Shown here: one piece after another, positions 27,968-32,008 of the stretch | Numbering within the stretch: the first letter of the stretch is position 1 | Layout of the letters: each line of letters begins with the position of its first letter | Assembly: GCF_014879935.1 (NCBI RefSeq) | Contig: NZ_JACSRD010000162.1 | Span: 1-32,008, forward strand | Source: Prosthecobacter sp. | Lineage (GTDB): Bacteria; Verrucomicrobiota; Verrucomicrobiia; Verrucomicrobiales; Verrucomicrobiaceae | Reading direction: 5' to 3' | Length of the DNA: 32,008 nucleotides | Translations under genes and position numbers: made by a program | The notes under the pieces: model-generated | What the model was told of the DNA's origin: nothing | The model's input: the letters and a program-made list of their open reading frames with translations, nothing else | The model's database searches: none

Positions 27968-27998
27968 CGGGCACGGAACGTTGCTTGCAGCGTGCCCG
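27968..27998 (+). promoter_or_regulatory. Hairpin in the kamA-ppk1 divergent gap
   Basis: Arms CGGGCACG (27968-27975) and CGTGCCCG (27991-27998) form a perfect 8-bp stem with a 15-base loop, ending about 10-22 bases before the candidate ppk1 starts. It could be a leader structure or a dimer-type operator. Function is unassigned. Confidence 0.4.
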
Positions 27999-28020
27999 GG
28001 TCCTCCGCATGATGAACTCG

Positions 28021-30165
28021 ATGTCCACGCCAGCGCCCTCAAACACGCCCGCCTCACGCCCAACGCCGCCGAAACTGCGGTTCACCGAGGAGCACTTCTT
28101 CAATCGTGAGCTGAGCTGGCTGGCCTTCAATTCACGCGTGCTCGATGAGGCCGCCCGCACCACGCTTCCAGTGCTGGAGCGCGTCAAGTTCCTCGCCATC
28201 ACCGCCTCGAACCTGGACGAATTCTTCATGGTCCGCGTCGGCGGTCTCCAGTTGCTGCGGGAGCAGGGCATTCGTGCGCGTGACAGTGCCGGTCTCACGC
28301 CATCGCAGCAGTGGGACCAGATTCATCAGCACGCTGCCACATATGTCGCCCGCCAGTATGAGATCCTGGGCCAGTTGGTGCCGCTGCTGATTGAAAACGG
28401 CATCCGCCGCCTTCCTGGAGCCGATTTGACACCGGCGCAGCGCACGCATCTCCGCGAATACTTCGACGAGCACATCTTTCCGGTGCTGTCCCCGGTCGTC
28501 GTCGATGACGCCGGTGCCCGTGCGGCCATTCCGGCGCTGAACATCGTGCTGCTATGCACCGTGAGCGACGATGAGGCCAGACGTCATGTCTTGCTGCCGC
28601 TGCCGGCCAATCTGCCGCGCCACGTGGCAGTTCCCGACCCGGATGGCGGCCAGTTCCTCTACGTGAACCTCGAAGACGTCGTCGCCCTCTTCATCGGCGA
28701 GTTCTTTCCGTCTGAGAAGGTGTCTGAGCCCGCCCGTTTCCGTGTCAGCCGCAACACCGACATCACCGTCGATGACGAAAGCGCCTTCGACCTCGCCAGC
28801 GAGATGGAGGAGGTGCTCGAAGCGCGTCTCAAGAGCCCCGCCATCCGCATCGAAATCGAGTCCGGTGCCTCCCGCGAGCACACACGCATCATTCGCGATC
28901 TTTGCGGTGCGAAAACCGCGCAAATGTATGAAGTGCCGGGTGAACTCGACCTTCGTGCCTACTTCCAGATCGCCAGCATCTCTGGTTTCGATGAGTTGAA
29001 GGTCGATTCGTGGGACAGCCATCTCAGCACCTCGATCACACCCGGTGAGAGCATCTTCGACGCGATCAAACGCGGCGACATCCTGCTGCACCATCCGTAT
29101 GAGAGCTTCGATCCTGTCCTCGCACTCGTCGAAGAGGCTGCGGCTGACCCAAATGTCATCGCGATCAAGCAGATCCTCTATCGCACGGCGAAGAACAGCC
29201 GCATTATCTCCGCCCTCATCCGTGCGGCGCAGGCTGGAAAGCACGTCACCGTGCTCGTGGAGCTGAAGGCCCGCTTCGACGAGGCCCGCAATCTCGAACG
29301 TGCCGCCGATCTCATCAACGCGGGTGCCCAGATCATCTACGGCGTCGCCGGTTTGAAGACCCATGCGAAGGTCTGCCTCGTCATGCGCCGCGAATCAGGC
29401 CACATGACGCGCTACATGCACTTCGGCACGGGCAACTACAACGAAAGCACCGCAAGGCTTTACACCGACATCAGTCTCCTCACCTGCCGCGCCGAATACG
29501 GCACGGACGCCTCCGCGTTCTTCAACACCGTCACCGGCCGTTCCCGCTTCGTGCATTTCAACAAGCTCAGCATGGCCCCCTACGGCCTGCGCGAGCGCCT
29601 GCTGTCCATGATTCGCAGTGAAACCGAGCGCGCACGCCAGGGCGATGCCGCCGAGATCATGCTCAAGATGAACGCGCTCGAGGACCGCCAGATGATCGAG
29701 GCGCTCTACGAGGCCTCGCAGGCCGGCGTGAAGATCCGGCTCAACGTCCGCGGCATCTGCTGCCTGCGTCCCGGCGTCAAAGGCGTCAGCGAAAACATCA
29801 GCGTCGTCAGCATCATCGACCGCAATCTGGAGCACGCCCGCATCTTCTGGTTCCGTCAGGGCGGCAAGCCGGTCGTCTTCATCGCCAGCGCCGACTTCAT
29901 GAACCGCAACCTGTCGAAGCGCGTCGAGTTGCTCACTCCGGTGGAGGACAAGGAGGCCCGCAAACGCCTCCAGCACATCCTCGAAGTCCACTTCGCTGAC
30001 ACCGCCCGTGGTCGCATTCTCAAATCCGACGGCACCTGGCAGCTTCCAAACGTCACCGCCGCCAAAACGGTGCGTTCACAGGAGCAATTCGCCAAGGAAA
30101 TGGCCAAACGTGCCCGTCAGGCGAACGAGTCTCCGGACGTCCTCGTGCCGCACACGCCGAAGTGA
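28021..30165 (+). CDS. ppk1: Polyphosphate kinase 1
   Basis: A 714-residue enzyme making long-chain polyphosphate from ATP (reversible). The start at 28021 gives MSTPAPSN; ATGs at 28009 and 28012 are also possible and none has a clear ribosome site. Conserved blocks are FFNRELSWLAFNSRVLDEA and NLDEFFMVRVGGL in the N-terminal domain, SFDPVLALVEEAA and VELKARFDEARN in the first PLD-like domain with the autophosphorylated His in MHFGTGNYNESTARLYTD (codon at 29419), and the second His in LEHARIFWF (codon at 29833). Length is normal. Its stop codon directly abuts the remains of a broken aquaporin gene, the last native-looking DNA before the AT-rich segment. Confidence 0.95.
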   Translation: MSTPAPSNTPASRPTPPKLRFTEEHFFNRELSWLAFNSRVLDEAARTTLPVLERVKFLAITASNLDEFFMVRVGGLQLLREQGIRARDSAGLTPSQQWDQIHQHAATYVARQYEILGQLVPLLIENGIRRLPGADLTPAQRTHLREYFDEHIFPVLSPVVVDDAGARAAIPALNIVLLCTVSDDEARRHVLLPLPANLPRHVAVPDPDGGQFLYVNLEDVVALFIGEFFPSEKVSEPARFRVSRNTDITVDDESAFDLASEMEEVLEARLKSPAIRIEIESGASREHTRIIRDLCGAKTAQMYEVPGELDLRAYFQIASISGFDELKVDSWDSHLSTSITPGESIFDAIKRGDILLHHPYESFDPVLALVEEAAADPNVIAIKQILYRTAKNSRIISALIRAAQAGKHVTVLVELKARFDEARNLERAADLINAGAQIIYGVAGLKTHAKVCLVMRRESGHMTRYMHFGTGNYNESTARLYTDISLLTCRAEYGTDASAFFNTVTGRSRFVHFNKLSMAPYGLRERLLSMIRSETERARQGDAAEIMLKMNALEDRQMIEALYEASQAGVKIRLNVRGICCLRPGVKGVSENISVVSIIDRNLEHARIFWFRQGGKPVVFIASADFMNRNLSKRVELLTPVEDKEARKRLQHILEVHFADTARGRILKSDGTWQLPNVTAAKTVRSQEQFAKEMAKRARQANESPDVLVPHTPK

Positions 30166-30346
30166 TCAAACCGCCGGCCACAGCGCCTTGTAAACCAGCG
30201 CACCGAGGATGCCGCCGATGATCGGGCCTGCGACGGGAATCCAGGCGTAGCTTCAGTCGGCGCCGCCTTTCACGCGCGGGGTTGATGGCATAGGCGGTGG
30301 TGGGAGCATACATCCAGAACAAGGAGCAGTAAGACAAGCGTCTCAT
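30166..30346 (-). pseudogene. Broken 3' end of an aquaporin/glycerol facilitator (MIP family) gene
   Basis: Reading leftwards, one frame gives YAPTTAYAINPAR, the second NPA box of a MIP channel (NPAR codons at 30272-30283). About ten bases later another frame gives VKGGAD-stop-SYAWIPVAGPIIGG and ends at 30166. In intact members, NPAR is followed by about 20 residues before GG(S/A)DW(S/G)YAWIPV. So an internal segment is missing, the frame is shifted, and the Trp codon of ADW is TGA (30253-30255). The N-terminal 80 percent of the gene is absent; homology fades near 30320-30346. This is a decayed remnant cut by the arrival of the downstream DNA or by a deletion. Confidence 0.7.
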
Positions 30347-30531
30347 ACACCGCTTTGAGCGGTTAACACATTACAAGCCCCCGGCTCTGCCGGGGTATCT
30401 GAATGGGTTACCATGGCAATCTAAGAGTGTTAACACGGTTAAAATACCGGGGTAAGCCGAAATTGTTGAGATGGTAACCCGCTAAACCAAATGGGTTAAC
30501 CCGCGCCAGACGCTAATATCAATATTACAGC
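30347..30531. other. Dyad-rich intergenic region at the island edge
   Basis: No gene. It holds ACCGCT-TTG-AGCGGT (30349-30363), a 7-bp-stem hairpin (30379-30395), perfect palindromes GTGTTAACAC (30427-30436) and GGGTTAACCC (30493-30502), and a 10-bp inverted pair GGGTTACCAT (30405-30414) / ATGGTAACCC (30471-30480). A direct repeat CCGGGGTA lies at 30390 and 30447, and TAATAT-CA-ATATTA (30514-30527) sits just before the next start codon. GTTAAC or GTTA/TAAC cores recur throughout. It could be a cluster of binding sites (iteron- or operator-like), a recombination site, or a structured RNA. Confidence 0.6.
30379..30395. terminator. Strong short hairpin CCCCGGC-TCT-GCCGGGG
   Basis: A perfect 7-bp GC stem with a 3-base loop. 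There is no T-run on the plus strand (TATCTGAAT follows). On the minus strand TTGTAATGTG follows, which is also weak. It may act as a terminator or as part of a larger structure. Confidence 0.35.
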
Positions 30532-31083
30532 ATGGTTAATATGTACATGAGCTTCAAAAGACAGAACTTGCCATCAAGAATCTTGCACAAGCTAATGAGC
30601 GAAGGGGTAGGGGTCCCGGTTTCAGCTGAACATGTGCTGTCCTTAGCTGGCAACAGTAGCTGGTATGTAATTCGTGAGCTGGCTAAAGCAGGGGATCTGC
30701 TAAATCCGGAACTTTATAAAGGCCCTTTGCCGCTAGGAGTAGCGCTCAAGCTCGAAAGGCTTGGGATACTTAATCGAGACATGCTCCGTGAGAAGCTCAT
30801 GTCACACGAATTAGATTTGGGTTCAATGAGTTACATTGGGAAAAAACGCGCAGATCGCATTTTAAAGTGGGCCGGGATCGATCCAGCATCCAATCGAATG
30901 GTGTCTATCAGGTTAAGGCTGCCACTAAGAGTGCTTCAGCAGCTTCGCCGTTTTGGGAAATCGTCTGAAACCATGACTGAAGATAAAGCTGCCCGCATCA
31001 CGATTAATCACGTTCTCAAATGCTTCGGCAGGTCAAAAGAATCTCATCATAAAGAACCAGATAATCCAAGAATAAATAGATAG
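30532..31083 (+). CDS. Unrecognised small protein, possible HhH/ribbon-helix-helix nucleic-acid binder
   Basis: A 183-residue protein not recognised from any family. In-frame starts at 30532, 30541 and 30547 are all without a ribosome site; the first is used here. Residues about 72-115 (KLERLGILNRDML ... YIGKKRADRILKWAG) resemble a helix-hairpin-helix of the RNA polymerase alpha-CTD/RuvA kind, with the hairpin at IGKKRA. Residues about 123-163 (MVSIRLRLPLRVLQQL, then a turn and ARITINHVLK) have the strand-helix-helix spacing of a ribbon-helix-helix. The protein is basic, especially at the C-terminus. Its base composition is much more AT-rich than the genes to the left. It lies just after a cluster of dyads it might bind; this is inference. 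Confidence 0.65.
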   Translation: MVNMYMSFKRQNLPSRILHKLMSEGVGVPVSAEHVLSLAGNSSWYVIRELAKAGDLLNPELYKGPLPLGVALKLERLGILNRDMLREKLMSHELDLGSMSYIGKKRADRILKWAGIDPASNRMVSIRLRLPLRVLQQLRRFGKSSETMTEDKAARITINHVLKCFGRSKESHHKEPDNPRINR

Positions 31084-31169
31084 ATCTACTGAAAAATAAT
31101 CCCAGGAAATGAACTCGGGCGAATACTGCATCTCCCAAGTGGTCAGTTAGTTCATAAAACACAAACAAT

Positions 31170-32000
31170 ATGATGTCTTTATCAAGCGCTCAGAAAAACA
31201 TTTGGCGTTTAGCCAAGCGGATTCTCTTTGTGGCTTTAGCGCCAACCCTGTTGCTTATACAATTATTATGGGTATGGACCTATGATTCGAGCGCCAACAT
31301 ATTGAACAGCACCTTCACCGATTTTGCTGTTGGTGGCGCGGTGTTAATGATCATCGCTGTCTGCATCTATTTCATCTTTACGACCGCTTCTGGTCACGCA
31401 GACTGGCGATGTTATCATCGCGGTCAACTAAACACGCAGAGCTTGACACCTCGCGTCTCAGATTCAGCGGAACTGGGGCGTTTTTATAGCGGAGGCGCAG
31501 TGGCGATGAAGCCCTTGGTTGACCTCATGGGCGATTTCTCCGCTAGGCACAAGAATCTGCCGCTCGTTCTTTTGCTTTCAAGAAACGGTGCGTTAGAATT
31601 CAAAGCGGGCTGGTACTGCTCTCCCACCCTCGGTTTATCCCTTGCGGCCCAAATCGAAGCCAACTCGCCGAACTATGTCACTCACCAATGCATCGTTAAG
31701 GTGGCGGAACGCCTTATGTCTGTATTCTCCGTGCCTTTTGCCACGCGTCTTGGCACCGCAACGCTTCTCATCTTACAGCCCGATGAGCCTTCATTAGATA
31801 TGGCAAGGAACGCATTCATGCAGGGAGCCGCACCTGAAATTCCTTCTCTTGTTAGTTCGATGGCTCGACTTTTGGAGACTCAAGCGGGACTGGACGGCTT
31901 GGGCATTGTGCTTCCACCGCCAAAGAGGCTGCGAATGATAACGAGTCTTCGCTGTCCTGAGTGGGTATCGAAGGTAGCAGCGGCGAAAGCGGAGTGGTAG
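31170..32000 (+). CDS. Unrecognised membrane protein with two N-terminal TM helices
   Basis: A 276-residue protein starting at ATG 31170 or 31173, with no ribosome site. Two membrane helices lie at about residues 18-37 (ILFVALAPTLLLIQLLWVW) and 52-73 (FAVGGAVLMIIAVCIYFIF). A soluble C-terminal region of about 200 residues follows, with mixed alpha/beta character (LPLVLLLSRNGALEFKAGW, GTATLLILQPDE). Basic residues before the first helix and the short outside loop place the soluble part in the cytoplasm. No catalytic motif is recognised. It is 86 bp after the previous gene in the same direction, with similar AT-richer composition, so both probably arrived together. The complete gene ends 8 bases before the window edge. 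Confidence 0.68.
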   Translation: MMSLSSAQKNIWRLAKRILFVALAPTLLLIQLLWVWTYDSSANILNSTFTDFAVGGAVLMIIAVCIYFIFTTASGHADWRCYHRGQLNTQSLTPRVSDSAELGRFYSGGAVAMKPLVDLMGDFSARHKNLPLVLLLSRNGALEFKAGWYCSPTLGLSLAAQIEANSPNYVTHQCIVKVAERLMSVFSVPFATRLGTATLLILQPDEPSLDMARNAFMQGAAPEIPSLVSSMARLLETQAGLDGLGIVLPPPKRLRMITSLRCPEWVSKVAAAKAEW

Positions 32001-32008
32001 GAAGAGGG

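Follow-up and report, generated by a model that had tools for sequence, protein, structure and literature searches.

A degenerate 22-bp tandem array beside an insertion-sequence relic, upstream of a 183-aa gene in Prosthecobacter sp.

We found that the dyad-rich leader at 30349-30531 is not one element but two adjoining units: an IS200/IS605 right-end relic and a degenerate array of 22-bp repeats. Coordinates refer to the window, the whole 32,008-nucleotide stretch of DNA that was analysed. A preliminary description, made from the letters alone, had read the leader as a single cluster of dyads and offered several explanations. All the elements it listed are present in the sequence. For the right-hand part (30398-30507) its suggestion of an operator array or an origin is apt; roughly one third of the feature (30349-30402), by contrast, is the IS200-family relic. 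What we observe directly is the relic, the precise 22-bp register, the stronger conservation in the core columns, the single occurrence of each of the two palindromes in this genome and where the array lies. The likeliest function of the array is that of a cooperative operator of the adjacent 183-aa gene, to which we give somewhat less than an even chance. The features are as follows.

30170..30312, minus strand: 3'-end relic, with deletions, of a presumed aquaporin-like gene behind ppk1 (similarity to contig C197)
30350..30402 (the end may be 30404), plus strand: IS200/IS605-family right-end relic (identity to four ends)
30349-30363: 15-bp dyad ACCGCTTTGAGCGGT, accounted for by the IS relic
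30379-30395: GC hairpin CCCCGGCTCTGCCGGGG, within the IS relic
30398..30507, plus strand: degenerate tandem array of five 22-bp units, consensus TCTAAATGGGTTAACCCGCTAA (autocorrelation and harmonic statistic)
30398..30419, plus strand: unit 1, GGGTTACC core, 16/22 to the consensus of the five
30420..30441, plus strand: unit 2, perfect palindrome GTGTTAACAC (30427-30436) as its core, 16/22 to consensus
30442..30463, plus strand: unit 3, the weakest, GGGGTAAGCC, 11/22 to consensus
30464..30485, plus strand: unit 4, GGTAACCC core, mirror of unit 1, 15/22 to consensus
30486..30507, plus strand: unit 5, perfect palindrome GGGTTAACCC (30493-30502) as its core, 17/22 to consensus
30405-30414 with 30471-30480: inverted 10-bp pair, GGGTTACCAT with ATGGTAACCC, cores of units 1 and 4
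30514-30527, plus strand: AT dyad TAATATCAATATTA, in which TAATAT at 30514 may be a -10 element
30532..31083, plus strand: 183-aa ORF, weakly predicted to have a helical N-terminal part and a helix-hairpin-helix-like middle part
31943..32008, no strand assigned: repeat at the contig end (own-genome comparison)

The insertion-sequence end and other flanking DNA

A comparison of 30330-31200 with 48 genomes of the genus gave four matches apart from the window itself, with G021 and G012 contributing two each. They cover query positions 21-73 or 21-76 with identities of 94, 94, 93 and 89%. The flanks differ among the four copies, and all of them stop together at TCTGA(CT). This sharp end, common to copies at different sites, points to membership of 30350-30402 in the IS200/IS605 family. 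At one of the four copies (L009) we found an adjoining Y1 transposase gene (PF01797, E 3.1e-37), which stops about 90 bp before the same IS end. Its product carries DHVH and YIQNQ, as read from the sequence, and the sequence for its last codons was judged by eye to be common to two of the other loci (L006 and L008).

TnpA of the IS200/IS605 family recognises subterminal hairpins, according to passages of PMC6006769. When the window, L007, L008 and L009 were folded as single-stranded DNA, 30349-30404 made both hairpins seen in L007 and L008. The GC stem has 7 bp in the window versus 9 bp in those two loci, and is weakened in L009; compared with the four relatives, the hairpin at 30379-30395 lacks one G. 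The window thus shares the subterminal hairpin with IS200/IS605 right ends, including the one that follows the Y1 transposase gene in L009, but it keeps only about 53 bp, has lost one base of the hairpin and has no transposase gene. A second copy of the right end was not found in the own genome, and no left end with a hairpin and target tetranucleotide was recognised by eye in the window. The relic holds the CCGCTTTGAGCGG dyad, GGTTAAC and the subterminal hairpin, and accounts for the 15-bp dyad, the GC hairpin and the first GGTTAAC of the cluster. At a locus of G012 (L007, 1501-2885) an ISL3-family transposase gene (PF01610) was found about 300 bp from the same IS200 right end, so that the end may survive there as a relic too.

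Other decayed or repeated sequences lie on either side. To the left, 30170-30274 is 92% identical to positions 1783-1887 of own-genome contig C197, where a longer copy of the gene continues; the extension of this relic to about 30312 was made by eye, and we take it to be aquaporin-like from a reading of the protein. The longer copy on C197 adjoins a putative transposase gene (by eye). To the right, 31943-32008 was compared with six own-genome loci, with 100% identity over 66-67 bp in five and 96% over 75 bp in the sixth. This 66-bp stretch is present in at least six other own-genome contigs and stands at the contig end in all six compared; own-genome protein matches number 12, the window's own included. 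The stretch is probably an insertion-sequence end that cuts the ORF at 31170-32000, whose last codons it supplies. The homolog in G015 (L049) has 331 aa.

Dyads, period and core columns of the array

The cluster was compared with 3000 dinucleotide shuffles, the control by which the preliminary description wished it to be judged. The counts in 30349-30527 were reached in 0.8-2.7% of shuffles (palindromes 2.7%, short dyads 0.8%, distant 9-mer inverted pairs 1.6%), while three GTTAAC cores in 179 bp were never reached. Among 1592 sub-windows of the whole window, on-site ones included, 18 matched the palindrome count, 12 the short-dyad count and 27 the distant-pair count; the GTTAAC count was matched by two, both on the site itself. 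A density far above the rest of the window had been claimed, which holds for GTTAAC but is overstated for dyads. By dyad counting the cluster is only moderately above chance, uncommon and not unique. The AT dyad, described as touching the start codon, stops four bases before the ATG at 30532. We rejected the inverted pair GGTTAACACATT/AATGGGTTAACC as a unit because one of its arms is IS-derived.

The stronger signal is a 22-bp periodicity, which is absent from the preliminary description. Measured from centre to centre, the palindromes and the arms of the inverted pair lie about 22, 44 and 22 bp apart. Autocorrelation of 30403-30531 gave 44, 22 and 66 as the three strongest lags; the best single lag was reached by 13/2000 shuffles and lags 21-23 by 4/2000. 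Local self-alignment was matched by 24/1000 shuffles in direct and 26/1000 in inverted orientation. Taken singly these tests are weaker, but they agree with the period. As the value of 22 bp was suggested by the data itself, maximisation over lags was needed, and we used a harmonic statistic (lag plus double lag plus triple lag, maximised over lags 8-30). It picked 22, and its value was reached by none of 5000 dinucleotide shuffles for each of four end choices. With the possibly IS-derived bases removed (30405-30507), 0/5000 mononucleotide shuffles reached it. Among 3188 sub-windows taken across the whole window the value also ranked first, lags divisible by 3 being left out. In a control on other fetched loci, from which the seven loci holding the array were excluded, 4 of 3040 overlapping sub-windows reached it, with periods of 12, 8, 21 and 21. 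Tandem Repeats Finder at score 30 did not see the array, because the units are too degenerate. A degenerate iteron-like array can therefore hide inside what looks like a cluster of dyads and be missed by tandem-repeat software; here it could be separated from the IS relic that had inflated the cluster. The second-best periodic signal in the window lies at 71-290, where a strong 14-bp periodicity was observed in an ORF with repeated AAGDxRNxPGDxSP-like motifs.

Beyond the five units, the next unit in register to the right matches the consensus at 4/22 positions, while the two on the other side, which fall in the IS relic, match at 7 and 9. A coding stretch in register at 30574 reaches 12/22, so that unit 3 on its own is not distinguishable from chance. 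Unit 1 begins with 5-7 bases that derive from the IS; their match to the consensus is either fortuitous or a sign that the IS cut into an array that may once have been longer.

Conservation is concentrated in the middle of the units. Columns 8-18 have a mean of 4.1/5 identical bases versus 2.7 elsewhere, a difference matched by 219/20000 column permutations. By direct reading, unit 2 carries two matching changes from the consensus core, one in each arm, which keep the palindrome. Core conservation together with a kept palindrome gives the units the look of protein sites, though five units are few. The core spacer varies between GGT-N-ACC and GGT-NN-ACC (GGTTACC and GGTAACC versus GGTTAACC), and this variation of one or two central bases is a point against a strict dimer site.

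These data bear on whether the array is no more than a decayed tandem duplication without function. Pairwise identity of the units is only 8-14/22 and no relative of the array was found in the 47 other genus genomes searched, as a decayed duplication would have it. Identity is, however, concentrated in the palindromic core, and the five units stand in register without a net indel. Uniform decay predicts neither the core-focused identity nor the kept register, and we regard a decayed duplication as improbable.

The 183-aa gene and its product

The array is separated from the ATG of the 183-aa ORF by 24 bp. Of 67 other family genomes, three, which all belong to the same genus, hold a homolog of the product, with identities of 39, 34 and 34%; one homolog has an internal stop and one lies at a contig end. 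None was detected in the 386 other genomes of a phylum-wide draw (387 with the own genome), in the plasmid collection or, with the alignment as query, in viral contigs. The genome-contig collection gave no match to the single protein and three to the alignment.

Searches with the 183-aa ORF gave no convincing match in Pfam (best E 0.047, below the cut-off), NCBIfam or PHROGs, and its profile had one chance match (E 1.3) among PDB sequences. Two AlphaFold2 models built from four sequences were mediocre (pLDDT 66 and 68). Foldseek of the model against PDB returned 46 matches up to E 10, the best at E 2.0, and gave no support for DNA binding. With VIA-align, where Z below 8 can be chance, the middle part was superposed on PolX (Z 7.0, rmsd 2.6, 60 residues) and on NAD-dependent DNA ligase (Z 4.0 and 3.7); we take the aligned regions of both to be helix-hairpin-helix. 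The N-terminal part aligned with helical parts of clamp-loader, RuvB, sigma-factor and ribosomal-protein chains. These rows were set aside, as was a Hel308 row with Z 5.2 but rmsd 7.4. From the models it is plausible that the 183-aa product is a DNA-binding protein. By eye its C-terminus has a strand-helix-helix-like pattern, while the models show helices without a strand. A ribbon-helix-helix domain found no support when three fragments of the C-terminus were searched in Pfam and one among PDB sequences.

The unbroken homolog in G041 (L011/L058) is the only one with a readable upstream region, and no array was found there. A single GAATGGGTTACC lies upstream of it, and this sharing was reached by 1/500 shuffles. 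With the possibly IS-derived bases removed, the longest shared word is 9 bases, which 47/500 shuffles reached, and the matrix score at the G041 GAATGGGTTACC (8.7) is lower than that at an unrelated place in the same locus (11.6). In G041 (L011) and G015 (L013) the homologs adjoin, by eye, the same two genes, of 140-141 aa (presumably a DoxX-like protein) and 243-244 aa, so the 183-aa gene seems to have a shared place in these two genomes.

Possible roles of the array

A repeat of 22 bp is about two helix turns, and sites on one face of the DNA allow side-by-side cooperative binding. Most likely several copies of one DNA-binding protein bind the GGTTAACC-like cores side by side, the best candidate being the 183-aa product itself. 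With a gap of 24 bp to the ATG, any promoter of the 183-aa gene would have to be placed upstream of the array or share sequence with it or its edge. The array fills the expected promoter space, so that its occupation would shut the gene off, and the outcome would be cooperative autorepression. Among the options of the preliminary description, the operator array is the best. Protein binding, the identity of the binding protein and repression are steps that we infer, since the one relative with a readable upstream region has no array there. Counted against an operator are the poor unit 3, the variable core spacer, the weak models and a scan of 30150-31250 that gave no match to a sigma-70 consensus promoter. 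Confirmed binding would give an uncharacterised family of verrucomicrobial proteins a target and a role as regulator.

Iterons typically take the form of tandem repeats about 22 bp long, and the five units agree with the tandem direct repeats of about 17-24 bp expected at an iteron origin. The array could accordingly be iterons or a centromere (parC/parS-like) of a plasmid or mobile element now in the chromosome, with the 183-aa protein as initiator or centromere-binding protein, a reading that we consider unlikely while giving it some weight. G+C is only 46-49% in the last windows, versus about 60-62% in most others, and the region is flanked by two IS ends. However, no Rep or ParA was recognised before the contig stops at 32008. 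One longer ORF lies between the 183-aa ORF and the contig end; Pfam and PHROGs gave no match to it, and its NCBIfam matches were at chance level. Plasmid records (72,556) match neither the array nor the protein, and phage records do not match the array. The contigs that carry the three homologs of the 183-aa protein are 78 to 417 kb long, and two of the homologs have ordinary-looking genes as neighbours. The array therefore resembles iterons of plasmid origins in having five 22-bp repeats in a row, and differs from them in the lack of a recognised Rep and of a match among the plasmid records.

Partition systems offer a second comparison. Omega repeats are 7-bp heptads. Operators of the omega-parS/ParG type (PMC5016525) likewise place several repeats with inverted-repeat cores immediately before a small gene, whereas the array has degenerate 22-bp units, and neither a ribbon-helix-helix match nor a ParA was found. 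According to PMC5016525, type Ib partition centromeres are direct and inverted repeats upstream of the operon, and the small centromere-binding proteins of these systems also repress. By analogy, type Ib plasmid partition may be seen as a close functional counterpart of the array and the 183-aa gene. We prefer autorepression as the simpler reading, because the visible 1.5 kb has no recognised replicon or ParA genes. It is doubtful that the array and the protein form a self-contained regulatory or DNA-partition pair, in which a helix-turn-helix plus helix-hairpin-helix protein would act on GGTTAACC sites every 22 bp; its family would be one that Pfam, NCBIfam and PHROGs models do not recognise and that we found only in one verrucomicrobial genus.

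That the leader acts as a structured RNA, another of the early suggestions, is highly improbable. The segment 30347-30531 folds at z -2.55, with 2/200 shuffles as good, but the IS hairpins supply part of this: 30403-30531 alone gives z -1.72 (13/200). Rfam returned no match at E up to 1, and a five-fold 22-bp register is unexpected for an RNA fold. The suggested recombination site found no positive evidence; the three ORFs at 27985-32000 include no recombinase in Pfam, and the contig ends 1.5 kb on. Integron attC/attI sites were weighed by eye and dropped.

The array might instead serve as operator for another regulator of the island and not for the 183-aa protein. The missing array at the only readable homolog upstream (G041) and the weakly supported DNA-binding fold of the 183-aa protein would agree with this, but we think it unlikely in view of where the motifs occur. 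The preliminary description proposed looking for the motif set elsewhere. In the own genome of 7.7 Mb, GTGTTAACAC and GGGTTAACCC have one copy apiece, at this site. A near-consensus pattern of 18 bases, allowed up to 3 mismatches, had 44 matches in 23/48 genus genomes versus 77 for the reversed pattern used as control; in the own genome it matched unit 5 and one other place, versus three control matches. Unique palindromes and a lack of near-consensus enrichment argue against a regulator with many other targets, though this search is blunt: the pattern recovers one of the five array units and could miss degenerate arrays elsewhere. BLAST of 30403-30531 against the 48 genus genomes (E up to 10) gave, apart from the array's own site, no match better than chance (best 0.20), and plasmid and phage records (E up to 1) gave none. 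Because its period is 12 bp, we did not count as a relative a 5.5-kb IMG/VR viral contig with a doubled GGGTTAACCC (L061), which carries an array of GTGGGTTAACCC-like words at 2810-2890.
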